Shown here: positions 4,474 to 58,643 of the stretch, piece by piece
How positions within the stretch are numbered: the stretch's first letter is position 1
Layout: every line of letters starts with the position of its first letter
NCBI GenBank assembly: GCA_020796225.1
Contig: CM036768.1
Coordinates: forward strand, 41,552,789-41,616,788
Direction: 5' to 3'
Origin: Arion vulgaris
Lineage: Eukaryota > Mollusca > Gastropoda > Stylommatophora > Arionidae
DNA length: 64,000 bases
Program-made: the position numbers and the translations under genes
Notes under the pieces: generated by a model
What the model was told of the DNA's origin: nothing
What the model saw: the letters and a program-made list of their open reading frames with translations, nothing else
The model's database searches: none

Positions 4474-4500
4474 CTCTCTCTCTCTCTCTCTCTCTCTCTT
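4474..4500. repeat. (TC)n microsatellite
   Basis: Uninterrupted TC dinucleotides separating two LINE fragments. Confidence 0.95.
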
Positions 4501-4511
4501 GCGATTCCGGC

Positions 4512-5118
4512 CTAGACTGATGAACCAACTTTTATCATGAATGTTACCGTGTTTTTAAAGGACTCCGTTCCTCTGTACAGCTTCTCGCGAAGCTCTGTGT
4601 TTTGAGGCAAGGTTTCTTTTCTTATGTCTGCTATCAGTTGACAATCTTGCAGAACGTGTTCTGCCGTCATGTCCGCCTTTTGAAGGGCACAGGCTAGTTG
4701 TGATATGATCGAGAACTCCAAGTTTCAATTTTGTTAGCAATAGTGGGAAGGTCAAGAAGGAATCTTATTGACACTCATTAGGTATCTTTGGTGCATCCCA
4801 GAATGATATGTATTGCCTCATTTTGAATTCTTTCAAGTTTCACTGTTTGCGTAGGACTAATTGTTTGGAGAGCGCATGCATATTCTATACATGACAGAAC
4901 AATATTTTGATACAGGAGCACAAGATGGCGCTGCTTGATGTTGCCATGATTCTCAGTGCGGATAGTGCGTTGCGAGCCTTGGCAATAACTTGATCGATAT
5001 GGTCCCTAAAGAATAGACTGCGATCAAACTTTACACCCAAATAACTCATAGATGCTGTTCGAGTGAGTGTATGTCCATCTACAGAGGCATCTCCTTCTAA
5101 GCGTAACAGGCAAAGCTT
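4512..5118 (-). pseudogene. jockey-like LINE, C-terminal part
   Basis: Minus strand pieces in order: SYLGVKFDRSLFFRDHI with KARNALSALRIMA (5000-5070), then VKLERIQNEAIHIILGC (about 4800-4860), then a terminal piece with TAEHVLQDCQL and ELREKLYRG (4512-4721). YLGVxxDxxLxFxxHI, RIQNxAxRxILG and AEHxLxxC are typical of the region after the RT palm in LINEs that carry an RNase H-like tail. Frameshifts separate the parts. At about 5119 it meets a LINE of the opposite strand. Confidence 0.75.
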
Positions 5119-6460
5119 TGCACTAGTCCTTTCAAAACGACTACAGAAACTGGCGGAGCGTGTTCTTCCAGAGTCACAATGTGGATTCAGAGCTAGACGG
5201 TCAACAACTGACATGATATTTACCCTTCGACAGCTACAAGAGAAGTGCAGAGAGCAGAGCAAGCCTCTATGTATTGCTTTCGTGGATTTGACTAAGGCAT
5301 TCGACACAGTCAGCAGGCCAAGTCTTTATAAAATATTGAAGTATATTGGTTGTCCCCAAAGTTGCTCCAATTGATTGTTTCCTTCCATGAGGGCATGAAA
5401 GCCAGCATACAGTTCGATGGCAGCACATCTGATAGTTTTGAGGTTAAGAGTGGAGTCAAGCAGGGCTGTGTCCTTGCCCCACTCTCTTTGGTATCTTCTT
5501 CGCAGTCCTTTTGAACCACGCCTTAGGGGACGCTGATGGTGATGTTTTCATCCGCACTAGATCTGATGGTTCACTGTTTAACTTGGCTCGCTTAAGAGCC
5601 AAGACAAAACGACGGAAATACTTCTCAAGGACCTCCTTTTCGCTGACGATGCTGCCTTAGTCGCCCACAGTGAGACCACACTGCAAAGTCTAATTAATAA
5701 TTTGTCAAAGGCATGCGACCTCTTTTCTCTGACAATAAGTGTCTCCAAAACAGTTGTATTATGTCAGGAGGTAAGACATCAAACATCACTTTAAATGGCG
5801 ACCATCTAACACCAGTGCAAAAATTCTGCTATCTTGGGTCCACGGTCACTGCCAGCCTTTCTCTTGACGAGGAAATCAACGCTCGTATAAGGAGTGCCGC
5901 TACTACATTCGGCAAACTATCAAAGCGAGCGTGGGACAACAAAAATTGACATTGCAGACGAAGACTCAAATATATCGAGCCTGTGTAATTAGTTCTTTAC
6001 TATATGGCTCAGAAACATGGACAGCCTACTCAAGACACGAGAGGAGACTTAACATCTTTCACCTTCAATGTCTCCGCAAGATTATGAACATCAGGTGGTA
6101 CGACAAGATAACCAATACTGAAGTACTACAACGTGCAAATCTGCCTTCCATCATGGGCATGCTCAGCAGTAGACGACTAAGATGGTTGGGACATGTGAGA
6201 AGAATGGAAACTTATCGCATACCAAAACAAATGTTGTTCTGTGAACTTTCGGAGGAAGAGGCACCAGGGCAGACCACTGCTCAGATATAAAGATGTCTGC
6301 AAAACCTCAATGAAAACTTTTCTATAGATCCCAGCACATGGGAGGGACTAGCTGATGACAGAGTTGTGTGGAAAGCCAAATTACGGAAGGGCGCAGAGTC
6401 TTTTGAGAAGAGACTTATGTACGAGCTGAACAACAAGAGAGAAAAGCGAAAACTCAGAAG
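5119..6460 (+). pseudogene. LINE reverse transcriptase, RT core to C-terminus
   Basis: Plus-strand reading: LQKLAERVLPESQCGFRARR and IAFVDLTKAFDTVSR (RT motif A Asp), GVKQGCVLAP (motif B), LLKDLLFADDAALVAH near 5630-5680 (catalytic FADD), YLGSTVTASLSLDEEINARI, LLYGSETWTAYSRHERRLN, RRLRWLGHVRRM, and the tail WEGLADDRVVWKAKL. Motifs A, B and C are all visible, but the frame changes at least three times (near 5370, 5500 and 5940). The endonuclease is missing (5' truncation). The same family occurs at 8566-10910. Confidence 0.85.
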
Positions 6461-6464
6461 TTGT

Positions 6465-6985
6465 CACAGTAAAACACTTGCCTATTGACCGTCTGTAAAG
6501 ATGAAAAGGGCCATATATGTCCATCTATAGTGACATGTGGTGTTTCAGAATTCACAATATGATTATTTAGGGAGAACCATGATAGCACAGTTTTGATATG
6601 GTTTATCGTTGCACCAAAAACATCGCACCATAACATGACGCGGTCCATTTCTTCCTGTAGTTTATTAGCAATTTCATCCCTGTTTCTCCCATGTCTGTAC
6701 ACCATGATGTCGTCTGCAAATGACAGTGTTCGTCCCCTGCCAGATAGTTGCTGCTTCGTAATCATTATGGTGAATACATTGAATAGTATTGGAGATAGTG
6801 GGGACCCATATGGTAGGCCCGGTGAAAGTTGTGTCGGAACAGAGTACCAATTACCACACCTGAGTGTCACTTTTCTCTCTAGCGGGCGCTTGCAATCCAT
6901 CTTATGAGCATTGTATCGATATTGAATAGCGTGATCATTTGTATAAGGTTTGTGATTGGAACTTTGTTGTAGACATCCTCGAGAT
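6465..6985 (-). pseudogene. LINE reverse transcriptase, 3' half (split copy)
   Basis: Minus strand: LERKVTLRCGNW, LPYGSPLSPILFNVFT (motif B), LSFADDIMVYRHGRNRDEI (motif C FADD), then WCDVFGATINHIKTV. Its 5' continuation is at 8292-8570: the coding sequence stops at DLE on that side and resumes here with DVYNKVPI. The two halves are one LINE copy interrupted by the 1.3-kb repeat at 6986-8282, flanked by CCTCGAGAT on both sides (6977-6985 and 8283-8291). Confidence 0.83.
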
Positions 6986-8282
6986 ATTCTTCTTCTTCTT
7001 CTTCTTTCAATCATTCTTGACGGCCAATTTTATCATTCTTTTTGTGATATATAATTGGTCCTTTGACAGGAACGGAGTGATCTGCGTCGGGTCGATTGTG
7101 CGCCCATGGTGACTAGACTCGTCCATCCGGTTTCAGCCAGCTTTTGATTTACTAGGGTAAACTTTCCCTAGGGTACAAACCTTTCTGCCGACTATCGGAT
7201 CTCGCCTTTTCGATCAGCTTTGCCGTATATTTGGGCTTTGTGATCTACGCCAAGATAGTGAGTTACGCTGTTATGCCCTTTCTGACTGTGAGGTCGTTCC
7301 GGATTAGAAACATTTCACGGGGATTATGAGCTTGTCCTCGGACGGCGTCTTATTTGTATAAAACACCGTGTAAAGTATCGGACTTCGCCAATGTTCGGAT
7401 CCGGACAGTGTGTCAGATCTTTACATTGTCGACCTTACTTTACCGTTCACTTTTGAGTTTGTTCCGGAGTAGGAACATTCTCAGCCTTTCCTAGACGCGG
7501 GTCCGTACGTGGCAATTGGCAGTTTGCAGACGGAAAACACCGGCCTGGGGCCAATCACAAATAATGCAGAGGATAGTTTCAATCGGCGATAGCAATGCAA
7601 CTGAGGATTTTGCCATCCACCATCACCCGCCCAGTTCTTCTGGGGATGTTAGTTGTGACTGCAACAGTGCCTTGCCCGGCTGCCTCGCGGGTGTCAGTTC
7701 CGTTAGGCATCACCCACCTCAGTTCTTCCGGAGATGTTCGCTGTTATCGCAACAGTACCTTGCACGGTTTTTCCAAGGAGGGTAGTTTCGTTATGCACTA
7801 AAACGCAACTTTATGTTTTGTGCTCGGCAAACCTTGCCCAGTAGATCTATCTGCGTCATGCCACCGATGCGGAGTCAGCTGCAATCTCCCCTTGTACCGA
7901 CACGAAGGTAGACTTTTATTCGTTACGCATCTGACTTATTTATTCTTGCCCCACAGCTGGCAATGTTTGCACCCTCCTCAGGGCTTCGAGTTTCGGCCTA
8001 TGTGGCACACGTTTCGTCACTGGATGCACCTCTCATCCTTTCATGTTTACTAATCTCCCCATTGACAGAGAAATTGGTAATTTATGGCGGGACCTTTGAC
8101 TTACACGTCGAGCTTGTGTATGGAGACCCTTGCTCCGAACATGGCAATTTGTGTTCGGCCCTTACTCCCGGAGAGTAGGGATTATATCAGAGACGTTTCG
8201 CTGCTGCTTCTTTTTGTTCGGGGACTGTAGCAATATTTTGTTGGACGTCGGCCAGGAGAGTCGTGTATTTTGTTCGTATGGA
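6986..8282 (-). mobile_element. GAA-tailed repeat family, copy A (5' truncated)
   Basis: Reverse-complement relative of 20350-21464. Shared stretches include GTTTCAGCCAGCTTTTGATT (7130s, complement of 21300s), the segments around AACATCCCCGGAAGAACTGAGG, and the end ATATATCACAA...GAATGAT...(GAA)n at 6986-7005. The 9-bp direct repeat CCTCGAGAT lies immediately outside both ends. A simple 3' triplet tail, a 5' truncation and a short target-site duplication indicate insertion by target-primed reverse transcription. I find no conserved protein frame; ORFs across it are not shared in frame between copies. It interrupts an RT gene. Confidence 0.82.
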
Positions 8283-12048: not shown

Positions 12049-13130
12049 TCAGTTAGGGCCAGATAGTAAACAACATTCCTTGTTTTCCCGTGAAAACACC
12101 ATGTCTTGAAGTTGTTCTATTGAGTGCACAATATTGCAGAAGACTTCTTGTAACTTGATTGTGTCAGTGTTTGGTTCTTTGCAAAGCCGCCCATCTCCTA
12201 AAGCAAGCAATTGATCAGCAAAGTGTCCAGCATTGACATCCTGCTGTAAATGGACCCTCATGTTGGTAGTTAATTTTAAATTTTGAACATGTCTCCAAAG
12301 ATGGGATGATTTCAGACGCGCCTTGAGCTCATCAACCATTGTTCCTCTAGGAATAATAGGAAGTGTTTGCCTGAAATCACCAGTAAGAACCACTACTGCT
12401 CCACCCATAAGTTGTCGATTGTTTCTAATATCTTGATGAGACCTGTTGAGTGCTTCTAGTCCTTGCTTGTGAATCATAGTACATTCATCCCAAACAATCA
12501 GTTTGCATTGTTGTAAAACTGCCGCTTTGCCTGTTCCTTTACTGATATTGCAAATTGGCACTTCGGTACGTGCTAAATCGAGTGGCAATTTAAGAGTAGA
12601 GTGGGCAGTTAGTCCTCCTTGAAGCAAAGTTGCTGCTATTCCAGAAGAAGTCATTGCAATTGCAATATGCGATTGAAAGCGAATTTTGAAAGGAGTAAAT
12701 TCATCACAAACGTCTTTCTTGTCCCTCAAATTTTGTGGATTTGATGGATTGCATGAGGTAATAAGAATGATGAAAAGTGATCTGATCTTTTGTGGTGATT
12801 CTGATGCAACTGTTTCTGTCATCGTAGCATGCCATTGGTTGTCGTCCTCCAGTAAATCAAGCTTTTGGCATGCTTCACGGAATGTTGCAGAAACTTGACC
12901 CTCAACCGTCTTTAATTCAGTAAATGATATTGTACCTCTAACGGTATGAAGTAGGATGCGGAGGTAGAAACATTCGAAATTGTTTGGATGAACAGTATAA
13001 ACCCGTCCCAAAACATCGCTAGATTTAACTCCATCAAACCCAACAACTGTGACTCCCTGCTTTCTTCTATTAAAATCTTTCCTTGACCTATCCCGTGTGT
13101 AATATTTAGCAACTTCAAAGTAAAGTAAAG
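12049..13130 (-). pseudogene. Helitron helicase domain (Pif1-like), Walker A lost
   Basis: The C-terminal half of the Helitron protein is a superfamily 1B Pif1-like DNA helicase that would unwind DNA during rolling-circle transposition. Visible motifs: SSGIAATLLQGGLTAHSTLK, KLIVWDECTMIHK (Walker B, DE), GAVVVLTGDFRQTLPIIPRG (motif III with sensor Gln) and LTTNMRV. Helitron 2 carries the phosphate-binding PGGTGKTFM at 62892-62918. Here that segment is replaced by a deletion junction (NLRDKKDVCDE, 12690-12730), so ATP binding should fail. The C-terminal part of the helicase is also cut short at 12049, shortly before the 3' hairpin. Confidence 0.85.
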
Positions 13131-13144
13131 TCTTTGCAAAGTCG

Positions 13145-14237
13145 TCATTTTGACAAAGCCCCAAAAAAGGCAGTTAAAGTTGTTCTTGGAAGTTGTTGAA
13201 CTCTGCGTTGAAAATTTTCTGTATTGAAGTAAACTCTCTGTCCGTTTTCAAGGTGGACGCTCAGTTGCATTACGGAGGGATATTTCTCATGAACTGGGAA
13301 ATCTAATATATGCCAAACTGCTTCATTGCTGCTGATGTAGTGGCCAGCACGATAACCTTCTATTTCATCAATCAATTCTCCATCTTTTTGAATCCCAAAC
13401 ACAGCTTGATCAGAACCTTTGTGTATGTATTTTAACACATATTTGATCGATTTTACTGAATTGCAGTGTGACAACATTCGACAATACGGAACAATCCATC
13501 TATTGTCGATGTTAAATTCAACTGAACTATTTGCTCTCTTAAGTATCTTAGTTGCTTCGAATCCTCCATCAGCTAACTTTCTTCTTCGATATAGTGGATA
13601 GCCATCTTCTCCAGTTTGATTTTCGAGCAACAGACTCTTCGGATATCGTTTGGTACATTTGCCGTCCTTCATACATGGGGAATATTCGGATTGATGTATC
13701 CACATGGTCCATGCACCATTTGCTCTATAACGGTTGTATGTAGTTGTGGATCTAAGTTCGGGTCAGGAATCTCCGACCTAATAATGTGATCAATATTATT
13801 TGGGTCAATCTTATTTAATAACCAAAATAATAAAGGGTTATGTGGCAAACCCCATTTCTGCCACTCTGTTGAAGACACCCAACATCTCCAGGACTAAAGA
13901 TCTCTCCCTTCTTTATAAGTTGCATGAATTTAATTAACTTTTGACGAAACACAAGTGCAATTAGATCATGTCTATCCAAATGTGACTGTCCGGGTAGTAA
14001 TTCATCTTGTATTTCTTTCCATTTTGGGTTACATGTAAACGTTATGAAGAGATCAGGTTTTTCATAATTGCGAATATAAGTAATCAAATCTTGGGTATAT
14101 TCATGAATATACCGCGGACCTCCGGTAAACTTTGATGGCAAAATAACCAACCTGCCATATTTGTTTGCCTGGCCATCTATCGCAATAGCATCCCTCAAAT
14201 GAACATATTCTTCTGAACGTAGTTTTGTTTGGTTCAA
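13145..14237 (-). pseudogene. Helitron Rep (HUH) domain, damaged active site
   Basis: Minus strand: EEYVHLRDAIAI, PSKFTGGPRYIHEYTQDLIT, KPDLFITFTCNPKWKEIQDE (13815-14237). A frame change follows, then EWQKWGLPHNPLLFWLLNKI, HTTVIEQMVHGPCGYINPN, CMKDGKCTKRYPK, and the KYIHKGSD region (13145-13705). In Helitron Rep the sequence after GLPH should supply the second His of the HxH metal site; here it is PHNP with a frameshift at the same place. The Rep nickase is therefore unlikely to work. GLPH, FTCNPKW and the KYxxKG site near the Tyr motif identify the family. Confidence 0.85.
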
Positions 14238-16492: not shown

Positions 16493-17143
16493 CTAGTAAA
16501 TATATAACTTGAATACATGCAACATATACCCATATAGATTACAAAGCAGGGAAGAGAAAGTACTAAGAAGCATAAGAATGGAATATAACATGAATACATG
16601 CAACATATACCCATATAGATTACAAAGCATGGGAAGAGAAAGTACTAAGAAGCATAAGAATGTAATACGTTGAGCCCGTGGTCGCAAGGTACCATACAAA
16701 GAAATCAACCGATTCTCCAGAGCAAATCGACTGCGATCATCCGAGGAACATGATCGGATGGCAGTGACCTGGACATCGTGAGCACCTAAATGGCCAGTGT
16801 CATTGAAATGGGTGGCTACAGGGGTCACAGAGCATTGGCGTATGTCGCGTAAGTGTTGGGCGAATCGGTCACTGAGCCTCTTGCCTGTCTCGCCGATATA
16901 AGCCTTGTTACACCGCTTACAGATAATATCATAGATAAGATTACGGGACTCGCATGTGAACCCATCGTCAATAAGAAACGTGCCTAAAGGAAAAGATACA
17001 GTACGCGTCTGTATCACATAAGCACACGTGTTGCAACGCCGACGACCACACTGGACAGTGCCAAAATGAGTCAGGATATTGGACTTAAGGCGACTGTGTA
17101 CCAACATATATTTAAGACTTCTGTCCCGTCTGTAAGACACCAA
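16493..17143 (-). pseudogene. Penelope-like GIY-YIG endonuclease domain
   Basis: Minus strand: LLVHSRLKSNILTHFGTVQC analog (SRLKSN), CGRRRCNTCAYV (Cys-rich linker of Penelope-like elements), FTCESRNLIYDIICKRCNKA, AYIGETGKRLSDRFAQHLRD, VATHFNDTGHLGAHDVQV, DRSRFALENRLISLYGT. The GIY-YIG core appears as IYDI/AYIG, with the catalytic Arg in GKRLSDR and the Glu/Asn of the ENRLI helix. This domain nicks target DNA for priming. It is the longest single-frame piece of this copy. The C-terminal 60 residues beyond LRPRAQRITF are read-through of the 3' UTR, where a ~65-bp segment is duplicated (16501-16565 and 16590-16655). Confidence 0.85.
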
Positions 17144-17535
17144 AGGATAGTTGGGAAGACAGAACGGGTCTCAGGATCTGATCTAAGGAGAGACAGATGA
17201 CGGAATAAAACATTTTTCACCAGGGAACTATGGGGGTGGTAAGTTAAGATAAGTTTTACTCTGTCAGAGTTAGTAGTCCTATGCTGACTGGTAAGGGCCT
17301 GCTGGCGAGTGATTTTCTGAACTCGATGCATAGTCGAGACAAGCACCCTCTCCGGGTATAGGCGCCTACGAAAGAAATCAAGCATCTCGCGAGCTCTCTC
17401 AAGAAAATCATCGTCCTCACTACAAAGGCGACGAAGGCGTAAGAGCTGCGAGAATGGCAAAGAGTCACGACAAGCCCGGGGATGGGAAGAAGTATAGAGG
17501 AGAAAACTATGTGCATCAGTAGGCTTGTAATATAC

Positions 17536-17617
17536 TGATGTATAGATAGTGGATAGGCGTAAGGTGATAGTAATGTCAAGAAAGCTCACCTTACACCTAT
17601 CCACTATCTATACATCA
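17536..17617. repeat. 32-bp inverted repeat at the 5' end of the Penelope-like element
   Basis: Arms 17536-17567 and 17586-17617 are complementary at 31 of 32 positions, with an 18-nt loop. The outer arm duplicates element sequence in inverted orientation right up to the target-site duplication. Confidence 0.92.
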
Positions 17618-19480: not shown

Positions 19481-19499
19481 AATAGATAGTTACTATATA

Positions 19500-20032
19500 T
19501 CTGGGTTGTGCGTCTGCAAACTGTGCCTTCCCGTTTTGAAAATAACCGGACGGGCGAGCCAGTCAGCGAACGCGGTTCCCCAGTGTCGATAACCAATTGC
19601 GTGCATAGTCTCTAACGGCTGCGCGTGCCTCCTCGCTTTTCACGCGAACGAGGCTCCCAGCGAATAAGGGACAAGGTAGCGTCTGCTATTAAGACTCGCT
19701 CGCTCGCGCGCGCGGTCTTATTGGTGGTGTGTGTGTCCGTATATCGGAGTTTCTCGGTCGCGATGTGATGCAGTCAGTCTAAAATTTTAAACGCTCGACG
19801 GTGGTCTCGTTAAAGGCCCGGCTCTCGCAACGAGCTTGTGGGTCCGCAGGTAGTAACATGGTGTCGTTCTTTGCTTGGCGAGGCGCAAGTCTTGCCGGCA
19901 AAACTGTGGGAAGCGAGCGCTCGGTCGTTTCGCTTCAATTTCGCATTTTCGCCGGGGGCGTCGGGATCCGCTCTGCACAGAGCGCTGTCTCCCTACCCCG
20001 AGCATTGTCGGTCCAGTCTCGTCCATGACAGC
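19500..20032 (+). other. rDNA 5' external transcribed spacer copy
   Basis: GC-rich stretch ending exactly at an 18S 5' end, with CG-rich runs (TCGCTCGCTCGCGCGCGCGG near 19690) unlike the AT-rich neighbourhood. Assigned as 5'ETS from position only; ETS sequence is not conserved enough to recognise directly. ORFs here (19787-20158) are incidental. Confidence 0.7.
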
Positions 20033-20166
20033 TATCTGATTGATCCTGCCAGTAGTCATATGCTTGTCTCAAAGATTAAGACATGCATGTCTAAGTTCAC
20101 ACTGTCTCACGGTGAAACCGCGAATGGCTCATTAAATCAGTCGAGGTTCAATAGATGACACGATCC
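20033..20166 (+). rRNA. 18S rRNA 5' fragment (pseudogene)
   Basis: Starts TATCTGATTGATCCTGCCAG and includes AGTCATATGCTTGTCTCAAA, GGTGAAACCGCGAATGGCTC and TTAAATCAGTCGAGG, ending at GATGACACGATCC. It differs from the usual 18S at several conserved bases (AAGATTAAGACATG rather than AAGATTAAGCCATG; GAGGTTCAATAG rather than GAGGTTCCTTAG). Only the first 134 nt are present, so it is not functional. The TTCACACTGTCTCACGGTG signature looks lophotrochozoan from memory. Confidence 0.93.
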
Positions 20167-21464
20167 GGGTTCAAAAAGGCTCATGAGGTCATAGTGGTAA
20201 CATGAGCCAGGGTTAGCGAGGGGGGGCGCTAACCAAGACCCTGCCCCTAACCTCCACGCGGTGACCCTGGAAACAGACTCACGGTTCTGGTCTGGCTAAG
20301 AGGGCAGGGATCGGGAGAGGAAACTACTTGTAGTGGTAGCAGTGCAATTACGGAAATACGATAAAGATACATACAAATAAAATGCACAAATCTCCTGACC
20401 GATGTCCAACAAGATATTGCCCAAGTCCCTGAACGCAAAGAAACAGCAACGAAACGTCTCAGACATGGATGAGAGGTGCATCCAGTGACCAAACGTATGC
20501 CCATGTAGGGCGAAGCTCGAAGCCCTGAGGAGGGGCAAACATTGCCAGCCCGTCGGCAAGAATAAATAAGACAGGACCGTAACGAATGAAAGTCTACCCT
20601 CGTGTTGGTGCGAGAGAAAATTGCAGCTGACCCCGCATTGGTAGCCTGGTGCAGATACATGTACTGGGCAAGGTTTGCCGAGCGCAAAAGAACAAGTTGC
20701 GTTTAGTGCATAACGAAACTACCCGCCCTGGAAAAACCGTGCAAGGTACTGTGCGATTAAAATTAACATCCCCGGAAGAACTGAGGTTGGTGATGCCTAA
20801 CGGAACTGCCAGCCTTGGGGCAACTGGGCAAGGTTCGATTGCAGTCGTAACTAACATCCCCGGAATAACTGTGGCGGGTGATGGCGGCGAGCGCAAAATC
20901 CTCAGTTACGCTGATAGTGCCGACTGAAACGACCCTCTACATTGTTTGTACTCGGCCCCATGCCAGTGCTTTCGAGGTTAATTGCAAATTGCCACGTACC
21001 GATACGCGTCTAGAAAAGGCTGAGAATGTTCCTCCCCGGATCAAACTCAAAATGTACGGTAAAGCAAGGCCGACAATGTACGGATCAAACAGGAAGTTCG
21101 GGTCTGAACATTGGCGAAGGCCGATACTTTACACGGTGTCTTATACGAGTAAGACGCCGTCCGAGGATAAGCTTACAAGCCCCGAGAAATATTTCTCAGT
21201 CAGAACGGGCATAAACAGCGTAACTCACTGTCCCGGCGTAGATCACAAAGCCCAAAATACGGCAAAGCTGATCGTACCCTAGGGAAAGCTCACCCTAGTA
21301 AATCAAAAGCTGGCTGAAAACGAACACCCCACCGAAGGATAAGCAACTGGGCTCCAATAGGTGCTGAAGGCTGGTGCACGTACATTACGTTCGGATGTTT
21401 GGCTGTTTATATATCACAATGAGAATGATTAAAACAGGCCTAGAACGATCGAAGAAGAAGAAGA
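20167..21464 (+). mobile_element. GAA-tailed repeat family, copy B (longest, with 5' end)
   Basis: Related to 6986-8282 (inverse), to 24305-24641 (3' part) and to 55656-59767 (inverse, split). The 5' start shared with the last copy is TCAAAAAGGCTCATG. The first ~60 nt can form two hairpins: GGCTCATG/CATGAGCC and GTTAGCG/CGCTAAC. Inside are two direct subrepeats of about 87 bp (20709-20795 and 20796-20884, each with AACATCCCCGGAA.AACTG). It ends in (GAA)5. No protein domain recognised in any frame; whether it codes for anything is open. Confidence 0.82.
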
Positions 21465-21480
21465 AGATAGTTACTATATA

Positions 21481-21613: not shown

Positions 21614-21824
21614 GGAGTCTGGTCGGTTACAGTTGATGGTCAGAGATCATCATCAGAATCTGGTCGGTTACAGTTGATGGTCAGAGATCATCATCAGAGT
21701 CTGGTCGGTTACAGTTGATGGTCAGAGATCATCATCAGAGTCTGGTCGGTTACAGTTGATGGTCAGAGATCATCATCAGAGTCTGGTCGGTTACAGTTTA
21801 TGGTCAGAGATCATCATCAGTAAA
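21614..21824. repeat. 41-bp minisatellite, about 5 copies
   Basis: Units start GAGTCTGGTCGGTTACAGTT and end in ATCATCATCA, each 41 bp. Only single-base differences. Confidence 0.95.
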
Positions 21825-32025: not shown

Positions 32026-32069
32026 GTAGCATTGGCGTAGCATTGACGTAGCATTGACGTAGCATTGGA
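32026..32069. repeat. 11-bp tandem repeat, 4 copies
   Basis: GGCGTAGCATT or GACGTAGCATT four times, inside the codons for the endonuclease QCYAPTND motif, adding repeated QCY-type residues. Confidence 0.9.
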
Positions 32070-32114
32070 CTATGTTCAGTTTAATTTTAACGTTTCTTCT
32101 TTCTTCTTCTTTTA

Positions 32115-32950
32115 TCGTCATACTGCTACCGGGTTGTTGCCCAGTGTCGTCATACTGCTACCGGGTTGTTGCCCAGTATCGTCATACTGCTACCGGGTTG
32201 TTGCCCAGTGTCGTCATACTGCTACCGGGTTGTTGCCCAGTGTCGTCATACTGCTACCGGGTTGTTGCCCAGTGTCGTCATACTGCTACCGGGTTGTTGC
32301 CCAGTGTCGTCATACTGCTATCGGGTTGTTGCCCAGTGTCGTCATACTGCTACCGGGTTGTTGCCCAGTGTCGTCATACTGCTACCGGGTTGTTGCCCAG
32401 TGTCGTCATACTGCTACCGGGTTGTTGCCCAGTGTCGTCATACTGCTACCGGGTTGTTGCCCAGTATCGTCATACTGCTACCGGGTTGTTGCCCAGTGTC
32501 GTCATACTGCTACCGGGTTGTTGCCCAGTGTCGTCATTCTGCTACCGGGTTGTTGCCCAGTGTCGTCATACTGCTACCGGGTTGTTTCCCAGTGTCGTCA
32601 TACTGCTACCGGGTTGTTGCCCAGTGTCGTCATACTGCTACCGGGTTGTTGTCCAGTGTCGTCATACTGCTACCGGGTTGTTGCCCAGTGTCGTCATACT
32701 GCTACCGGGTTGTTGCCCAGTGTCGTCATACTGCTACCGGGTTGTTTCCCAGTGTCGTCATACTGCTACCGGGTTGTTGCCCAGTGTCGTCATACTGCTA
32801 CCGGGTTGTTGCCCAGTGTCGTCATACTGCTACCGGGTTGTTGCCCAGTGTCGTCATACTGCTACCGGGTTGTTTCCCAGTATCGTCATACTGCTACCGG
32901 GTTGTTGCCCAGTGTCGTCATACTGCTACCGGGTTGTTGCCCAGTGTCGT
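32115..32950. repeat. 32-bp minisatellite, about 26 copies
   Basis: Unit CATACTGCTACCGGGTTGTT+GCCCAGTGTCGT, spacing 32 bp (32119, 32151 and on). Variants: GTATCGTC, TGTTTCCC, GTTGTCC. It lies within the endonuclease coding part of the RTE at 29441-33533. The unit has no stop in any plus frame, so ORFs of 270-349 codons appear in all three plus frames; these are by-products of the repeat. Confidence 0.96.
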
Positions 32951-33533
32951 GGTTTTCTGTTTTGTCTTGCGCTGTTAATGTTAGCGTTTGAGGTCCTGAA
33001 ATGTGCTCGGATCATAGTTGGTCCTAACGGCTCCCATTCAATTAATCCCGTTTGTTATTATTTGTCCAACATCAATGCTACACTCTGCTTGTGTGGTGAG
33101 TCTTCCTCCTCTCTTCCCTGAGTATAGCATTGTTTACCGTGTAGTAAGTCTAGTGCGTCCTGCATTTGTCCATCTGGTTTCGCCCAGTCTTAGGATGACC
33201 AGTACATATGTCCTCATTTCCTGTGCCACCGGTGCCGTCTTCCAAGTTTCGAACATCGTGCGGACATTCCAGGTTCCAATACTGGAGATCTTCTGGGTTG
33301 AAAGAAGGTGAGTCGGCAGACCGATTTCCTTTCAGATTTCACTGGGCCGCTTCATGTGTCCCTCTTTGTAGGGCCTTCTTCTTCCTCGGGTGGCGAGCTA
33401 GTTGTGGTTTCTGTAGCAATATAGTGCTTTTACGGAGTGGGGTAGCTCCTTAGTCGCCTCTTACGACATGCGTAGCAGGTAGCAGGGGTTCTATTCTTTA
33501 CACACCATTTAAGGCACCGGTAATCACTCGGGC

Positions 33534-38264: not shown

Positions 38265-41200
38265 AAATGTATGATAGGTCAGAAATAAATATGAAATGTA
38301 TGATAGGTCAGAAATAAATATGAAATGTATGATAGGTCAGAAATAAATATGAAATGTATGATAGGTCAGAAATAAATATGAAATGTATGATAGGTCAGAA
38401 AGAAATATGAAATGTATGATAGGTCAGTAATAAATATGAAATGTATGATAGGTCAGAAATAAATATAAAATGTATGATAGGTCAGTAATAAATATGAAAG
38501 ATGTGATAGATGAGGTATAAATAGGATACGTGCACTATATCTTGCATAAAAATGAAACGTGTGATAGGTTAGGAATAAATATAAAAAGTATATTAGGTCA
38601 GGAATAAATATGAAGCGTGTCAAAGGTCAGGAAAAAATGTAAAGATGAGAAGTCACGTATAAATATAAAACGTGAGATAGAACAGGTATAAAAATGAAAC
38701 GTGCGTAGATTAGGAATAAATATGAAACATACGAGAGGTCTGTATCAATATTAAAATTGTCATAGGTCAGGTATAAATATGAAACGTGTGATAGTTAAGT
38801 TAGAAATATGAATATGTTATAAGTCATGAATAAATATTAAACGTAGTGTAGATCAGGAATAAATATAAAGCGTGCGATAGGTCACGTATAAATATGAAAC
38901 GTGCGACAGATCGTGTATAAATATGAAATGTATGATATGTCAGGAATAAATATGAAATGTATGATATGTCAGCAATAAATATAAAATGTATGATAGGTCA
39001 GGAATAAATATGAAAGATGTGATAGATGAGGTGTAAATAGGATACGTGCACTATATATTGCATAAAAATGAAACGTGTGATAGGTTAGGAAGAAATATAA
39101 AGCGCGTGATATGTCACATATAAATAATAAATATGCGATAGGTCAGGTATAAATATGAATAAATACGGAACGTGTTTGGTCAGATATGATTATAAAAAGT
39201 GCGATAGGTCAGGTATAATTATCAAAAGTGTCATAGGTCAGGTATAAATATAAAACGTGCGATAGATCAGGTAAAGAAATGAAACGTACGATAGATCAGG
39301 TATAAAAATGAAGCGTGTGAATAGGTCAGGTATAAATATCAAACGTGTAAAAGGTTAGGTATAAATATGACACGTGTGATAGGAAAGTTAGAAATATGAA
39401 ACTGTTATAGTTCAGGAATAAACATGAAACGTATGCTAGTTTAGGAATAAATATGAAATGTACGATAGGTCAGGTATAAATATGAAACGTTCGCTTGGTC
39501 AGGTATAAACTTGAAACTTGCACTTGGTCAGTTATAAATATGAAATTTTTTATAGATCAGGAATAAATATAAAACGTGTAATAGGTCAGGAACAAAAATG
39601 TGAAGTGTTCGAGAAGTCACGTCTAAATATGAAACGTGTAATAGGTCAGGAACAAAAATGTGAAGCGTTCGAGAAGTCACGTCTAAATATAAAACGTGTA
39701 ATAGGTCAGGAACAAAATGGTAAAGCGTTCGAGAAGTCACGTCTAAATATGAAACGTGTAATAGGTCAGGAACAAAAATGTAAAGCGTTCGAGAAGTCAC
39801 GTCTAAATATAAAACGTGTAATAGGTCAGGAACAAAAATGTGAAGTGTTCGAGAAGTCACGTCTAAATATGAAACGTGTAATAGGTCAGGAACAAAAATG
39901 TGAAGCGTTCGAGAAGTCACGTCTAAATATAAAACGTGTAATAGGTCAGGAACAAAATGGTAAAGCGTTCGAGAAGTCACGTCTAAATATGAAACGTGTA
40001 ATAGGTCAGGAACAAAAATGTAAAGCGTTCGAGAAGTCACGTCTAAATATAAAACGTGTAATAGGTCAGGAACAAAAATGTAAAGCGTTCGAGAAGTCAC
40101 GTCTAAATATAAAACGTGTAATAGGTCAGGAAAAAAAATGTGAAGCGTTCGAGAAGTCACGTCTAAATATGAAACGGGCGATAGATCCGGTATAACTATT
40201 AAACTTGTGATTGGTCAGGTATAAATATGAAACGTGGAGTAGGTCAGGTATAAAAAGATATCGTGTAAAAGGTAAGATATAAATATGCAATGTGTGATAG
40301 GTCAGGAAGAAATATAAAAGGTATATTAGGTCAGAAATAAATATGAAACGTGTCAAAGGTCAGGAAAAAAATGTAAAGCATGCGAGAAGTCACGTATAAA
40401 TATTAAACATGCGATAGAACAGGTATAAATATGAAACGTGCGTAGATTAGGAATAAATATGAAACATGCGAGAGATCTGGTATAAATATTAAACTTGTTA
40501 TAGGTCAGGTATAAATATGAAACGTGTGATAGTTAAGTTAGAAATATGAATCTGTTATAGGTCAGGAATAAATATTAAACGTTGTATAGATCAGGAATAA
40601 ATATAACGTTTCGATAGGTCACTTATAAATATTAAACGTGCGATAGATCGTGTAAAAATATGGAATGTATGATGGAGCAGGAATAAATATGATATGTATG
40701 ATAGGTCAGCAATAAATATGAAATGTATGATAGGTCAGCAATAAATATGAAATGTATGATAGGTCAGCAATAAATATGAAATGTATGATAGGTCAGGAAT
40801 AAATATGAAATGTATGATAGGTCAGGAATAAATATGAAACATGTGATAGATGAGGTATAAATATGATACGTGCACTATATCTTGCTTAAAAATGAAACGT
40901 GTGATAGGTTAGGAAGAAGTATAAAGCGCGTGATATGTCACATATAAATAGAAATATGTGATAGGTCAGGTATAAATATGAATAAATACGGAACGTGTTT
41001 GGTCAGATATGATTATGAAAAAGCGATAGTTCAGGTATAATTATCAAACGTTTCATAGGTCAGGTATAAATACAAAGCGTGCGTTAGGTCAAGTATAAAT
41101 ATGAAATGTGCGATAGGTCAGGTATAAATATGAAAAGTGTGATAGGTCAGGAATAAATATGAAACGTGTGATAGGTCAGGAATAGGTCAGGTATGAAATT

Positions 41201-41879: not shown

Positions 41880-43865
41880 AGGCCGAAATGCTCACGTTGC
41901 TGCACTTGCTGTATGACTAGTTCTATTCGCTTAGGGAGGTCGAAATGCTCACTTTGCAGCACTTGCTGTATGACTAATTCTATTCGCTTAGGGAGGTCGA
42001 AATGTTCACTTTGCTGCACTTGACTAGTTCTATTCGCTTAGGGAGGTCGAAATGCTCACTTTGCTGCACTTGCTGTATGACTAGTTCTATTCGCTTAGGG
42101 AGGTCGAAATGTTCATTTTGCTGCACTTGCTGTATGACTAGTTCTCTTCGCTTAGGGAGGCCGAAATGTTCATTTTGCTGTACTTGCTGTATGACTAGTT
42201 CTATTCGCTTAGGGAGGTCGAAATGCTCACTTTGCTGCACTTGCTGTATGACTAGTTCTATTCGCTTAGGGAGGTCGAAATGCTCACTTTGCTGCACTTG
42301 CTGTATGACTAGTTCTAGTCGCTTAGGGAGGCCGAAATGTTCATTTTACTGTACTTGCTGTATGACTAGTTCTATTCGCTTAGGGAGGCCGAAATGTTCA
42401 TTTTGCTGTACTTGCTGTATGACTAGTTCTAGTCGCTTAGGGAGGCCGAAATGTTCATTTTACTGTACTTGCTGTATGACTAGTTCTATTCGCTTAGGGA
42501 GGTCGAAATGTTCACTTTGCTGCACTTGCTGTATGACTAGTTCTATTCGCTTAGGGAGGTCGAAATGTTCATTTTGCTGCACTTGACTAGTTTTATTCGC
42601 TTAGGGAGGTCGAAATGTTCATTTTGCTGCACTTGACTAGTTCTATTCGCTTAGGGAGGTCGAAATGTTCACTTTGCTGCACTTGCTGTATGACTAGTTC
42701 TATTCGCTTAGGTAGGTCGAAATGTTCATTTTGCTGCACTTGACTAGTTCTATTCGCTTAGGGAGGCCGAAATGTTCATTTTGCTGTACTTGCTGTATGA
42801 CTAGTTATATTCGCTTAGGGAGGTCGAAATGTTCACTTTGCTGCACTTTCTGTATGACTAGTTCTATTCGCTTAGGGAGGTCGAAATGCTCACTTTGCTG
42901 CACTTGCTGTATGACTAGTTCTATTTGCTTAGGGAGGTCGAAATGTTCACTTTGCTGCACTTGCTGTATGACTAGTTCTATTCGCTTAGGGAGGCCGAAA
43001 TGTTCACTTTGCTGCACTTGCTGTATGACTAGTTCTATTCGCTTAGGTCGGTCGAAATGTTCACTTTGCTGCACTTGACTAGTTCTATTCGCTTAGGGAG
43101 GTCGAAATGTTCACTTTGCTGCACTTGCTGTATGACTAGTTCTATTGGCTTAGGGAGGTCGAAATGTTCACTTTGCTGCACTTGCTGTATGACTAGTTCT
43201 ATTCGCTTAGGTCGGTCGAAATGTTCACTTTGCTGCACTTGCTGTATAACTAGTTCTATTCGCTTAGGTCGGTCGAAATGTTCATTTTGCTGCACTTGCT
43301 GTATGACTAGTTCTATTGGCTTAGGGAGGTCGAAATGTTCACTTTGCTGCACTTGCTGTATGACTAGTTCTATTCGCTTAGGTCGGTCGAAATGTTCACT
43401 TTGCTGCACTTGCTGTATGACTAGTTCTATTCGCTTAGGTCGGTCGAAATGTTCATTTTGCTGCACTTGACTAGTTCTATTCGCTTAGGGAGGTCGAAAT
43501 GTTCACTTTGCTGCACTTGCTGTATGACTAGTTCTATTGGCTTAGGGAGGTCGAAATGTTCACTTTGCTGCACTTGCTGTATGACTAGTTCTATTCGCTT
43601 AGGTCGGTCGAAATGTTCACTTTGCTGCACTTGCTGTATGACTAGTTCTATTCGCTTAGGGAGGTCGAAATGTTCATTTTGCTGCACTTGCTGCATGACT
43701 AGTTCTATTCGCTTAGGGAGGCCGAAATGTTCATTTTGCTGCACTTGACTAGTTCTATTCGCTTAGGGAGGTCGAAATGTTCATTTTGCTGCACTTGACT
43801 AGTTCTATTCGCTTAGGGAGGCCGAAATGTTCATTTTGCTACACTTGACTAGTTCTATTCGCTAG
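41880..43865. repeat. 57-bp minisatellite, about 35 copies, with 50-bp short units
   Basis: Unit CTGCACTTGCTGTATGACTA+GTTCTATTCGCTTAGGGAGG+TCGAAATGTTCACTTTG (57 bp). About nine units lack CTGTATG (50 bp). Variants: GGTCGGTCG for GGGAGGTCG, GGCCGAA, ATTTTG. A block of about 380 bp with the order normal/ATTGGC/GGTCGG recurs at about 43080, 43300 and 43470. Confidence 0.95.
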
Positions 43866-48065: not shown

Positions 48066-49062
48066 GCGAACTCTAGGTCAGGTATGAATTTGAAACGTGC
48101 GATACGTCGGACATAAATATGAAACATGCGATATGTCGGACATAAATATGAAACATGTGATAGTCAGGAATAAATATGAAACGTGCAATAGGTCAGCAGT
48201 AAATATGAAATATGCGATAGGTCAGGTATAAATATGAAACATGCGATAGTCAGGAATAAATATGAAACGTGCGATAGGTCAGGTATAAATATGAAACGTG
48301 AGCTAGGTCAGCAAAAAATATGAAACGTGCAATAGGTCAGCAGTAAATATGAAACATGTGATAGGTCTGATATAAATATGAAACATGTGATAGGTCAGGT
48401 ATACATATGAAACATGCGATAGGTTAGGTATAAATATGAAACATGCGATAGGTCATGGATAAATATGAGACGTGCGATAGGTCCGCAAAAAATATGAAAC
48501 GTGCAATAAGTCATGTATGAAATTGAAACGTGCGATATGTCAGGTATAAGTATGGAACGTGCGATATGTCAGGTATAAGTATGGAACGTGCGATATGTCA
48601 GGTGTAAGTATGAAACGTGCGATATGTCAGGTATAAGTATGGAACGTGCGATATGTCAGGTGTAAGTATGAAACGTGCGATATGTCAGGTATAAGTATGG
48701 AACGTGCGATATGTCAGGTATAAGTATGGAACGTGCGATATGTCAGGTGTAAGTATGAAACGTGCGATATGTCAGGTATAAGTATGGAACGTGCGATATG
48801 TCAGGTATAAGTATGGAACGTGCGATATGTCAGGTGTAAGTATGGAACGTGCGATATGTCAGGTATAAGTATGGAACGTGCGATATGTCAGGTATAAGTA
48901 TGGAACGTGCGATATGTCAGGTATAAGTATGGAACGTGCGATAGGTCGGCAACTAAAATGAAACGTGCGACAGATCAGCAATAAATATGAAAGGTGCGAT
49001 AGGTCAGCAATAAATATGAAAGGTGCGATAGGTCAGCATTAAATATAAAACGTGCGATAGGC
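48066..49062. repeat. ~29-bp satellite, right block
   Basis: Same family as 38265-41560. A homogeneous sub-block at 48530-48935 uses GTGCGATATGTCAGGTATAA+GTATGGAAC, with a recurring order of GGTATAAG and GGTGTAAG units. Confidence 0.92.
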
Positions 49063-49074
49063 TAGTTGTGATAA

Positions 49075-50042
49075 TTTTAAATTTGTGAAACATGTGGGCG
49101 TGGAGCCTGTTGTGGCCGGTACGGAGTCGAAGTATGGCAACTTGTTCACTACGAGACAGACCATAGTATCCGTCGCTGTTGTTGTGGTGAGGATGATCTT
49201 TTGTCCATTTGTCTCTATAGTGCCAGTCGATGGTTGTTCTGGCTTCCTCATAACTGACCTAGAGATCAGTTTCAGGTAGTCTCCCGCATTCTTTAGCTAG
49301 TCTGTCGGCATATTCGTTTCCACTTATATTACAGTGTGATGGTATCCACTGAATGACGGTGAGTTTGAGTGAGCGCGCTAGTTCATCGAGGGTCGCTTCC
49401 AGCTCTGTTTTTTCTACGCCTTTGAGTGCCGTGATGACCGATAGAGCATCGGTGAATATCACGACTTTGTTGCGAGAGGTGTTTCTTCTCTCCAGGTTCA
49501 TTTCGGCCGCTGTTCTTATTGTCTCTGCCTCTGCCTAGTAGTTATTTGAGTATTTTCCTGTGGCAATCGCTTTTGTGAACGTCACTTTCTGTGAGAGTTT
49601 AAGCACTATTCCTCCTCCACCATCGCTGATTGCGTTCCTTGCCGACCCGTCAGTGTGCACGTGTGTCCACTTATTACCGGGTATTCTGTCGATATATGTT
49701 TTTCTGTGGCTGCTCTTCTCTCGCCAAGTTTTCTTGCTGCCCTTTTTTCAGTATACCTATGATTGATTCCTTTAGTTCCGACATTTTTGTTTTCCACGGC
49801 GGGCACATATCTGTTGCCGATATTAATTTGGCTTTGCAGTTTGCTAGGACCGGATGGTCTGTGGTCAGTGCTTAGGCGTTTTTTGCGTAGCTGGTCCTCT
49901 GTATTCTGCCCCTTCCGAATCCGTTCAGTGTTTCGTACATAGGTGGGAATCGAGCTGTTTGATTTTTTCCGCCAACACCAAGACTTTTCTGTCCCTTCGA
50001 CCTGCCATTGGTTGGATGCCTGGGATTGTTTACGAACCACGC
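49075..50042 (-). pseudogene. LINE RNase H domain and C-terminus
   Basis: Minus strand: HVHTDGSARNAISDGGGGIV (first Asp; near 49640-49680), a stop before AEAETIRTAAEMNLE (Glu), VVIFTDALSVITALKGVE (second Asp), TVIQWIPSHCNISGNEYADR (His and last Asp; 49259-49501), then a tail at 49039-49251. The D-E-D-D set of RNase H is visible. Residues 49606-50040 form a frame-shifted linker. This domain removes the RNA template and is found in jockey/I-type LINEs. It may be the 3' part of the same family as 44950-47645. Confidence 0.82.
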
Positions 50043-50044
50043 TT

Positions 50045-50893
50045 TGTCTGTCTTTTCTTCCGTTGAGTTGCTACTCGAGAGAACCTATCGTCTCTTCCTC
50101 CTTGATGTGTGCTCATTGTACATTTCTATACCTCATCCTGACGGCCTTAAAGCTCTCCAGTTCTTTCTCGATAGGAGAACTAATCCAATTGTGTCAACTT
50201 CTGCTCTCCTTCGTATTGCGGAACTAGTTCTCACTCTTAACTCCTTTCAGTTTAATGACCAGTTCTTAGAGCAGATCAGTAGGGTTGTCATGGGTACTAA
50301 AATGGGACCTAGTTATGCTTGTCTATTCATGGGTTATCTTGAACACCTAGTATGGACTACATATGATGGCCCCCTTCCGTCTGTCTATGACATATACATT
50401 GATGACTGTATTGGCATTACTGATATGCCTGAAGCTGATTGATCACGCTTCATTACTTTCATTAATGTTTTCAACCCTTCTATTCGTTTTACTTCTCACA
50501 TCCCCACTACTTGTGTTAACTTTCTTGACATTACTATCTACATACGCCTATCCACTATCACTACATCAGGATATTACAAGCATACTGATGCACTAATTTC
50601 TCCTTTATACTTCTTCCCATCCCCGGGCATGTCGTTACTCTTTGCCATACTCGCAGCTCTTGCGCATTCGTCGCCTATGTAGCGAGGACGATGATTTTCT
50701 TGAGAGAGCTTGCGAGATGCTTGATTTCTTTCGCAGGCGCCTATACCCAGAGAGAGTGCTTGTCTGGGCTATGCATCGAGTTCAGAAAATCACTCGCCAG
50801 CAGGCCCTCACCAGCCAGCATAGGACCTCTAACTCTGACAGAGTAAAACTTATCTTAACTGTCCACCCCCATAGTTCACTGGTGAAAAATGTT
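50045..50893 (+). pseudogene. Penelope-like RT, plus-strand piece
   Basis: Plus strand: RTYRLFLLDVCSLYISIPHP (motif A, DVCSLY), LEQISRVVMGTKMGPSYACL (motif B), VYDIYIDDCIGITDM (motif C, YIDD), then a stop and VNFLDITIYIRLSTITTS. A later frame gives QLLRIRRLCSEDDDFLERAC, MHRVQKITRQQALTSQHRT. The order fits Penelope-like RT. It stops within the RT-endonuclease linker, where the inverted copy begins. Confidence 0.87.
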
Positions 50894-50899
50894 TAAATG

Positions 50900-52437
50900 A
50901 AAAAATGAAGAAGCATAGGAATGTAATGCGTTGAGTTCAAGAGGTCGCAAAGTGCCATATAATGAAATAAAACGGTTCTCCAGGGCGAATCGACTGCGAT
51001 CATCGGAGGAACATGATCGGATGGCTGTGACCTGGACATCGTCAACTCCTGAATGGCCAGTATCATTGAAATGAGTGGCCACAGGAGTCACAGAGCATTG
51101 GCGAATGTCGCGTAAGTGTTGGGCGAATCGGTCACTGAGCCTCTTACCGGTTTCACCAATATAGGCCTTATGGCATCGTTTGCAGGTGATAGCATAGATG
51201 ATATTGCGGGACTCACACGTGAAACTGTCTTGAATGGTATAGGTAGCTTTTGGAAAAGAGACAGTACGGGTCTGTATTACATATGCACATGTATTACAGC
51301 GCCGACGGCCACATTGGATGGTGCCAAAGTGACTCTGGGTGTTAGGCTTGAGGCGACTGTGTACCAACAAATCCTTGAGGCTTCTGTCCCGTCTGTACGC
51401 CACCAAAGGATAGTGTTGGAAGACTGAACGTGTCTCAGGATCAGACTGAAGAATAGGAGATGATGGAATAAGACCTTTTCACCAGGGAACTATGAGGGTG
51501 GAAAGTTAAGATAAGTTTAACCCTGTCAGACTTGGGGGGTTCTAAGTATGTGAGAGAGGGCCTCCTGGCGAGCGATTAGCTGAACCCGATGCATGGCACA
51601 TTCTCCGGGTGTAGGCGTTGGCGGAAGAAATCAAGCATCTCATGAGCTCTATCAAGAAAATCGTCGTCCTCGCTACAGAGGCGACGAAGGCGTAAGAGTT
51701 GAGAGAAGGTAAAGAGTCACGACAAGCCTGGGGATGGGAAGGGGTATACAGAAGAAAGCTATGTGTATCAGTAGGCTTGTAGTATACTGATGTAGTGATA
51801 GGGGATAGGCTGATGGTGATAGTGATGTCAAGAAAATTGACACAGGAGGTAGAGATGTGAGAGGTGAACCGAATAGCAGGATTGAAGGCATTGATGAAGG
51901 TAATGAAGCGTGACAAATCGGCTTCAGACATATCGGTAACTCCAATACAATCATCGATGTATCTATGATACACGAACGGAAGAAGGCCATCATAGGTGTT
52001 CCATACTAAGTGTTCAAGATGACCCATGAATAGACAAGCATAGCTGGGTCCCATTTTAGTACCCATGGCGACCCCACTAATCTGTTCGAAGAACTGGTCA
52101 TTGAACTGAAAGGAGTTGAGAGTGAAAACTAGTTCTGCAAGACGAAGGAGAGTCGAGGTGGAGACAAGAGGGTTAGTTCTCCTGTCGAGAAAAAACTGGA
52201 GAGCTTGAAGTCCGTCAGAATGAGGTATAGAGGTATACAGTGAGCAGACATCAAGGAGGAAGAGGCGATAAGTCCTGCCAGGCAACAACTTAATAGAAGA
52301 AAAACAGACAAAGTGTGGTTAGTATCTTTCAAGAATGAAGGTAGTGTGGTGACTATAGGGTTGAAGCTTCGCCCTGTACCTTCTACCACTCCTCTCAATT
52401 GTCCACAACTATCTTCTCCTCCCACCCAGGTTGTCAC
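50900..52437 (-). pseudogene. Penelope-like element, minus-strand piece (RT plus GIY-YIG)
   Basis: Minus strand: NPIVTTLPSFLKDTNH (52380), RLFLLDVCSLYTSIPHSDGL, GVAMGTKMGPSYACLFMGHL, FVYHRYIDDCIGVTDMSEAD (motif C), CVNFLDITITISLSPITTS (51542-52288), then the endonuclease (50876-51406): SHFGTIQCGRRRCNTCAYV, CKRCHKAYIGETGKRLSDRF, PVATHFNDTGHSGVDDVQ, FALENRFISLYGT. The RT palm runs 248 codons unbroken. A frame break separates RT from GIY-YIG near 51540. The 3' UTR is missing. Confidence 0.88.
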
Positions 52438-55655: not shown

Positions 55656-56444
55656 TTTCTTCTTCTTCTTCGCAAACGCACACTATTAATTCAGGCGGAA
55701 AGTCAAGACGCCTGGTATTGCTCTTCTGACTGATTTTTGCGTGGGCCTATATTACCCTATTATAGGTGTCCCTCAACCATACGGACAGCCTCGCCGACTT
55801 TAGAGGAACTTGAAGTTTAGATCCTTCAAGAGTGATCGTTGCAGGAGACCTATTGTCCTTGTAACTATTTCTCGGACAGAGTTAGTTTTAGTGAAGGCAT
55901 AACATTGACTTCTTTAACGGCTTTCCTGCCTTTGTTGAGGTCGTTCCATACACAACGTAAGATAACCGCTCTTTAATGATCTTTTAGTGCCGTAAATTTG
56001 GGCTTAGATCTACGCCAAAGAGCATTAGCTTATATGCTCTGATTGGGTGAGGTCGCTAAGGTAAAGACCCGAACGATCTCGACCCTTCTAGCGCTAGTCA
56101 CAGGAAGTATCACCTTTTTGGTGTTGCTTTGTCAAACAAACGATCATAAGTTTGCGGTATGCTTAGGCTGTATGTGATCTGAGCAATGACATTTGAACGT
56201 TATCTGTGTAGAATGATCGACGTCCGAAAAGTATTGCCCTTAGCCAATGCTTGGGTTTGCACCAGTCAAGCCTTTGCATTATCAGCCATATTCTTTTATC
56301 CACGGTGAGTTTGTTTCTGAGTAGGAGTATATTCTCAGCCGCTTCAGAGCGCGTGTCGTTACTTGGCAATTTGCATGGATTTCATCTTGTATTTTCCTGT
56401 CTCCATGAAACAATGGTCTGAGACTGCATACATATATTCTAGAG
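55656..56444 (-). mobile_element. GAA-tailed repeat family, copy D, 3' part
   Basis: Minus strand end (GAA)n at 55656-55671. Similar to copy C over its 3' 300 bp and to copy A further inward (TTTGGGCTTAGATCTACGCC; GAGTAGGAGTATATTCTCAG). The element is split here by the hAT element; TTCTAGAG is the duplicated target. Confidence 0.78.
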
Positions 56445-58308: not shown

Positions 58309-58643
58309 CTTCATGACAAGTTGACAAATGTCGGACATATAAACATTTTTTTAATGACTCGATTTTAACACAATAACACATGCTTTCCCGCTTTCAAATC
58401 TTTGTTAAAAGGAGTTAGCAATGTACCTAGATATAAGACTGTCCGTGTATTTAAGATTTTTTAGCTTCAGTAACGTGATTGTGAAGCAACATTCGTTTTT
58501 GTCAACAGACATGCAAAAGCTGTTATATCGGTTTTGCAACATCATGAACATTAGTTAAACTCTGTACGGGCCCATTGTCCCCTTAACAATGAAAATGCCC
58601 CCTGTGGGGCGTGGGCTCCACGTTGGGAAACAGGGTTCTAGAG

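Follow-up and report, generated by a model that had tools for sequence, protein, structure and literature searches.

A composite insertion in a 64-kb stretch of Arion vulgaris DNA (the window) joins the beginning of the pre-rRNA to a non-coding repeat, R. With a probability of about 70%, we attribute it to an 18S-preferring LINE and its satellite R, which are co-transcribed with pre-rRNA, processed by a ribozyme and sometimes copied uncut. Both elements would insert repeatedly at one place in the 18S gene and at many other genomic sites. Within the 18S gene no promoter of their own would be needed, as Pol I transcription beginning at the rRNA start would continue through them. A putative HDV-like ribozyme located at the first base of the element would cut it free and give rise to solo copies starting with GGGGTC, while uncut RNA, often with a P1 damaged by the variable 18S/element junction, would be reverse-transcribed whole. 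Such whole-transcript copies would carry a 5'ETS-18S head beginning at the Pol I start, and a head copy reinserted at the 18S site would produce a next transcript with two heads, and so on.

The window insertion is a single composite copy

The insertion (19499-21465) is framed by a target-site duplication (TSD) of AGATAGTTACTATAT (Table 1). The sequence-only reading, an earlier interpretation of the window, had described a 16-nt direct repeat, and this pair is present around the whole insertion: in a + strand search of the 64-kb window, the 16-mer AGATAGTTACTATATA had two exact occurrences, at 19484 and 21465, which enclose the ETS, the 18S part, the repeat and the (GAA)5 tail. Any exact 15-mer repeat appeared in 1 of 500 shuffles of the 2.2-kb segment, using a crude shuffle of 2-base blocks. 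The last A of the 16-mer is ambiguous, however. By eye, an A precedes TCTGGG in all seven head copies of the first set and lies outside the TSD in three of them (L009, L010, L014), so that 15 nt is the safe length of the duplication. For the same reason the rDNA part begins with A19499 and not with T19500 as first proposed, in agreement with the native sequence ACTAT/ATCTGGG (the slash marks the junction here and below). As the TSD encloses the whole composite, the data support the product of a single retrotransposition event, in line with the original proposal.

The 18S portion is indeed 134 nt long and directly followed by the repeat. Its match to SSU_rRNA_eukarya (RF01960; E 6.7e-9) is below the gathering score, and an Rfam scan of the whole window at gathering scores returned no matches. 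The identity of the ETS was confirmed by three native rDNA units (L090-L092). A 41-nt tandem repeat in five copies (21615-21820) is located shortly downstream of the insertion.

Table 1. Parts of the insertion and their positions in the window.
Feature	Position	Strand	Basis or remark
Left target-site duplication, AGATAGTTACTATAT	19484..19498	+	Next A possibly common to TSD and rDNA part
5' external transcribed spacer up to the 18S start; its first base is the presumed Pol I start	19499..20032	+	Native rDNA L090-L092
18S rRNA nt 1-134	20033..20166	+	Rfam RF01960 and native rDNA
GATGACACGATCC, 18S sequence duplicated around the element in 18S	20154..20166	+	Left and right 18S junctions
HDV-like ribozyme motif, 5' end of repeat	20167..20309	+	Rfam drz-agam-1; P1 by eye
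Repeat R, non-coding partner of the LINE	20167..21450	+	34 repeat-only copies; 5' end common with LINE
(GAA)5 tail	21451..21465	+	Sequence
Right target-site duplication	21465..21479	+	A21465 doubles as end of (GAA)5

Heads start inside native rDNA

The native units L090 (C1400), L091 (C7) and L092 (C1858) are 90.7, 97.2 and 95.0% identical to the head majority sequence. They extend upstream of the head start through a common block, roughly GTTAATCCACTCC.GGAACATA.TATAT, and downstream of the head sequence into ACTTGGATAAC. Since native rDNA runs on upstream of the first head base, with the boundary at ACTAT/ATCTGGG, the heads start inside the rDNA. This common first base probably marks the Pol I start, predicted as ATCTGGGTTG, because the copy of a complete primary transcript would stop there; Pol I is thus the putative polymerase of the element. 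The sequence-only reading had suggested 19500 as this start: the position directly downstream of the conserved block fits well, but the base is 19499. It had also named rDNA upstream of 19500 as an observation that would speak against it. What precedes this point in the window is the target duplication, and native rDNA by chance has a similar ACTATATCTGGG at the position matching the left flank of the window. Transcription of the head by Pol III was considered and rejected, as TTTT runs in the head (by eye) speak against it.

Two types of rDNA were observed: L090 differs clearly from L091 and L092 in the promoter-side spacer and over the initial ~190 nt of the ETS, and the remaining ETS and the 18S are nearly identical between them.

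Head copies are dispersed across the genome

We searched the genome (1.52 Gb, 3227 contigs, with an apparently mollusc-like 18S) with an ETS plus 18S query, which gave 1132 first-look candidates, 40 of which were scored and resulted in 46 matches. An R-like or LINE body was visible in 29 of the 30 loci from this query, and in the thirtieth (L067) R was visible in a longer stretch. Over both searches, 33 unique head loci were read, 27 with an R body and 6 with a LINE body; each locus was counted once, the window being L048, and L065, L067, L061, L076 and L050 were replaced by longer versions (L078-L081) or dropped as repeats. All 33 begin at one identical base (A, window 19499) and run into the 18S. 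The search for further ETS-18S-repeat joins recommended with the initial interpretation was therefore productive: its read-through account is correct in kind, and the locus belongs to a large family.

A TSD around the whole composite was found in 20 of 21 testable head loci compared with 1 of 420 mismatched pairs, where testable means a (GAA)3 tail in the stretch examined (21 of the 33 loci; the other 12 were left out). This test drew on the same 33 loci, named by other identifiers. The sole tested locus without a TSD was L011. Loci with several heads also lie inside one TSD: L050 (2 heads), L079 (3), L080 (2) and L078 (5). In the case of L068/L083, which has a LINE body, GAATAAACAA was seen by eye on either side.

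Single-head copies differ from the head majority sequence by 1-10 substitutions over ~670 nt. In a phylogeny built from the R portion of 41 copies, the seven head copies of the first set need five changes, four of them forced by well-supported branches. This topology suggests that head copies derive from at least four repeat lineages. A single chimeric founder was rejected, as the head copies spread over several R lineages on the tree. Among titles and abstract openings in the open-licence literature, we found no description of a retroelement family with 5'ETS-18S heads.

R is a non-coding repeat with a partner LINE

The query containing R, a repeat of ~1.3 kb, gave 6071 first-look candidates, 40 of which were scored. 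Altogether, 34 repeat-only copies were read, nearly all starting with GGGGTC or one base away and ending in (GAA)n tails; most have short TSDs and sit at unrelated sites. The longest ORF of the window within R encodes 146 aa on the opposite strand, and R was taken as non-coding.

In the six head loci with a LINE, the body has ~150 nt at the 5' end in common with R, followed by an endonuclease ORF. Pieces of the LINE in L083 contain an AP endonuclease (PF14529/PF03372), a reverse transcriptase (RVT_1, PF00078) and an RNase H domain (PF00075) in interrupted frames, which together form an I-superfamily-type domain set. R has two features of a SIDE, a 5' end in common with a LINE and no ORF of its own. 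For its middle and 3' part, no counterpart was found in the LINE beyond a 65-nt match (R positions 1139-1203), which is internal in the LINE, and the 3' ends of the two are alike in their purine-rich tails only. Based on the common 5' end and these tails, R is probably mobilised by the partner LINE.

The window also contains older headless relatives of R on the minus strand. One (6991-8280) is 5'-truncated and, by eye, adjoins a reverse-transcriptase-like ORF (6454-7014); the other (58639-59758, with a further piece near 56331-56375) is interrupted by other insertions. Two further minus-strand stretches, 49059-50029 and 4499-4702, are 78% and 82% identical to the LINE of L083.

A probable recurrent insertion site in the 18S gene

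By script, GATC(C) is the last 18S sequence on the left side in 23 of the 33 head loci, or in 24 if L062 is added by eye, while the body side of the 18S/element junction is variable, with ~18 junction types counted by eye over the 33 loci. A fixed 18S side with a varying body side resembles the 5' junctions of R1, which are reported to vary at the end of a 14-nt TSD (PMC2718515). Eight or nine of the 33 heads stop short of GATC(C), and L056 has an additional ETS-18S piece; both would be expected from template jumping as well.

The right-hand side was found with an 18S query (253 candidates, 40 scored), which returned six matches beginning at the start of the duplication. Four of these (L084, L085, L088, L089) are junctions between a LINE 3' end and the right-hand 18S side, which starts at GATGACACGATCC with some substitutions. 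The remaining two, L086 and L087, were rejected as element joins: they begin near the right-junction point, yet are diverged ETS-18S copies. L086 has CCTTAGATGACACG in place of the CAATAGATGACACG of native units. The identities of the four LINE ends to L083 are unequal (97, 86, 83 and 80% among the four), so the ends are probably of different ages. L085, L088 and L089 have (GA)n tails, whereas L083 has a GGAAGGAAGAA-type end; this suggests that older lineages of the LINE had used this 18S site too. At L084, the 18S persists at model positions 441-591; no left 18S junction of this LINE was found in L093-L097.

For R, the right-hand junction is known from one locus, L011, which reads R-(GAA)n-GATGACACGATCC, then a head, then a second R. 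The two sides of the site were thus seen in separate loci, and the best reading of these junctions is that the 18S site after GGTTCAATA/GATGACACGATCC is used recurrently, with a 13-nt duplication. The sequence-only reading had placed a repeat ~134 nt into an 18S gene, read through from the rRNA start. This is still the best reading, but the proposed search for rDNA units with the repeat at this position revealed no such unit: among the 40 scored places, 12 belong to presumed rDNA arrays (a C7 cluster of five, C1400, C1858, C1082, C977 and C2193), none of which has its start at the insertion point, so that array units carrying the insertion were not seen. This absence, the single locus behind the right-hand junction of R and the below-gathering match of the putative ribozyme are the weakest points of the account.

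Head copies often lack a full P1 in the HDV-like motif

The Rfam model of an HDV-like ribozyme, drz-agam-1, matched the window copy at 20227-20308 with 31.2 bits, under the gathering score of 37, and eight of nine further loci scanned with 27.5-31.6 bits, likewise below gathering (exception: L064). The motif is located at the 5' end of R and LINE alike. The model leaves P1 open; by eye, GGGGTC, the first six bases of solo copies, pairs with GACCCT downstream of P3, and two additional hairpins lie in between. Cleavage is predicted before GGGGTC, and the repeat-only copies start at this predicted cut. The window copy has GGGTTC instead of GGGGTC, which makes a full P1 impossible.

A full P1 is possible in 31 of 34 solo copies, selected by score and with L046 counted as pairing, versus 15 of 33 head copies (Fisher p 5.9e-5). 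Here, fewer than six pairs count as broken, five of six being easily reached by chance, and two of the 18 broken head copies are LINE copies with AGGGCC. An earlier comparison had been weak, with six pairs in 4 of 7 head copies and in 30 of 33 solo copies scored (L046 was not scorable). The contrast is support and not proof for a tendency of head copies to lack a working cutter, with the loss often located at the 18S junction, because template jumping could lead to the same difference and the solo copies were selected by score. The 15 head copies that kept the head despite a full P1 run counter to the proposed mechanism.

Tandem heads

Successive heads in L078, L079, L080 and L081 are joined as GATC(C)/ATCTGGG. 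L078 has five heads by alignment and four by script pattern, and one of them extends to ~nt 363 of the 18S before the next head begins. If a head copy reinserts at the 18S site and is then read through anew, GATCC/A(+1) joins are predicted, and we infer this route as the origin of the tandem heads. They would also arise by template jumping, in which reverse transcription reaches the 5' end of one pre-rRNA fragment and goes on at the 3' end of a second fragment. If heads were added by reinsertion, the R-proximal head should be the older one. The substitutions per head agree with this in L078 (3, 6, 2, 5, then 14) and L080 (3, then 9), but not in L079 (6, 5, 3) and L081 (5, 4). The R-proximal heads are thus not consistently the most diverged, which also speaks against the mechanism.

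Alternative origins of the heads

Joining of pre-rRNA to the element by template jumping during reverse transcription would account for the varied body starts and the extra bases at the join, for the tandem heads, for the L078 head reaching ~nt 363 and for the extra ETS-18S piece in L056, and R2 is reported to jump in vivo to U12 snRNA and tRNA (PMC3414825). We nevertheless consider it unlikely, as in most cases (24 of 33) the pre-rRNA would have to possess a discrete 3' end at 18S nt 134, and as both the LINE 3' ends on the right-hand side of the site and the junction of an R tail with GATGACACGATCC in L011 would be left unexplained. A fragment ending in GATCC might itself be the upstream product of the ribozyme cut, and template jumping and read-through may both operate. 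Template switching, named as the alternative in the sequence-only reading, may therefore contribute.

Much less probable still is an inherited chimera, in which ETS-18S was captured once, fixed as the 5' part of the element, perhaps as a promoter, and spread with it. This would require one head in at least four R lineages and in LINE as well as R, and it is at odds with the ~18 junction types and with single-head loci 1-10 substitutions from a majority sequence that native rDNA matches. It would fit the large number of head candidates (1132 at first look, 40 scored), the odd joins common to L066, L070 and L011 (AGAATTCAAAAG) and to L063 and L081, as well as the tandem heads, which are reminiscent of the promoter monomers of some LINEs. 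The window by itself would be compatible with a single accidental event at this locus, but 33 loci with separate TSDs, several lineages and tandem heads make the probability of this negligible. We also rejected a rare accident involving a single repeat in a single rDNA unit, since the 18S site was used by several lineages.

Within the favoured account of read-through and incomplete cutting, the head copies could represent a genomic archive of single transcripts, recording a failed ribozyme cut, the Pol I start, a junction that fingerprints the source rDNA unit and, in the number of tandem heads, the passages through the 18S. We regard this extension as tentative, at somewhat less than even odds. 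If true, LINE and satellite would gain one 5' pre-rRNA head per 18S passage.

Relation to known rDNA elements

R7 is a retrotransposon of arthropod 18S genes; no paper that mentions R7Ag1 by name was found in the open-licence literature. R2 and R8 form a separate group with a restriction-like endonuclease, whereas the present LINE has an AP endonuclease, which places it outside the R2/R8 clade. L1Tc/ingi of trypanosomatids are, to our knowledge, located outside rDNA and do not carry rRNA heads.

The system resembles R1 of the arthropod 28S, described as an APE-type LINE in an rRNA gene with copies outside rDNA, part of which are inferred to include 6-27 nt of the 28S sequence upstream (PMC2718515). 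It differs from R1 in its 18S location, its RNase H domain, its very numerous dispersed copies and the length of pre-rRNA these carry (~670 nt counted from the transcript start, in some copies in tandem). A putative HDV-like ribozyme would be shared with R2, in which the ribozyme is reported to free the element from the rRNA co-transcript (PMC3774820), and the location in the 18S with R8 of hydra (PMC5035012). R is comparable to the Drosophila R2 SIDEs, presented as non-coding partners that keep the ribozyme of the LINE and depend on rRNA co-transcription (PMC3414825), as it is a non-coding partner with the 5' ribozyme motif of its LINE; in contrast to these, R is dispersed, and for its middle and 3' part no LINE counterpart was found except for the 65-nt match. 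A 5' HDV-like motif in a LINE and in its short non-coding partner is also the feature in common with L1Tc/ingi, where such a ribozyme is reported at the 5' end of the LINE and its short relatives (PMC4035085). The best reading is that the present system works like R1 and R2, but is of the APE/RNase H type and resides in the 18S.

The many-locus sequence evidence from one genome points to a retroelement that resides in an rRNA gene, is fully read through by transcription initiated at the rRNA start, and has left insertions of its ribozyme-cut as well as its uncut RNA. The R1/R2 lifestyle of rRNA co-transcription, ribozyme processing and satellites would thereby extend to an 18S-inserted LINE of the APE/RNase H type, and the model suggests an uncomplicated way in which a retroelement can acquire repeated 5' units. 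The Pol I start of this animal, and whether ribozyme failure selects the RNA that is reverse-transcribed whole, can now be tested.

Other repeats in the window

Long tandem repeats that read as repetitive ORFs are located at 32065-33121, 39518-40195 and 42002-43470. By eye, the ORFs at 16493-17604, 50008-52288 and 12049-14237 resemble Penelope-like elements (GIY-YIG-like end) and Helitrons (helicase-like).
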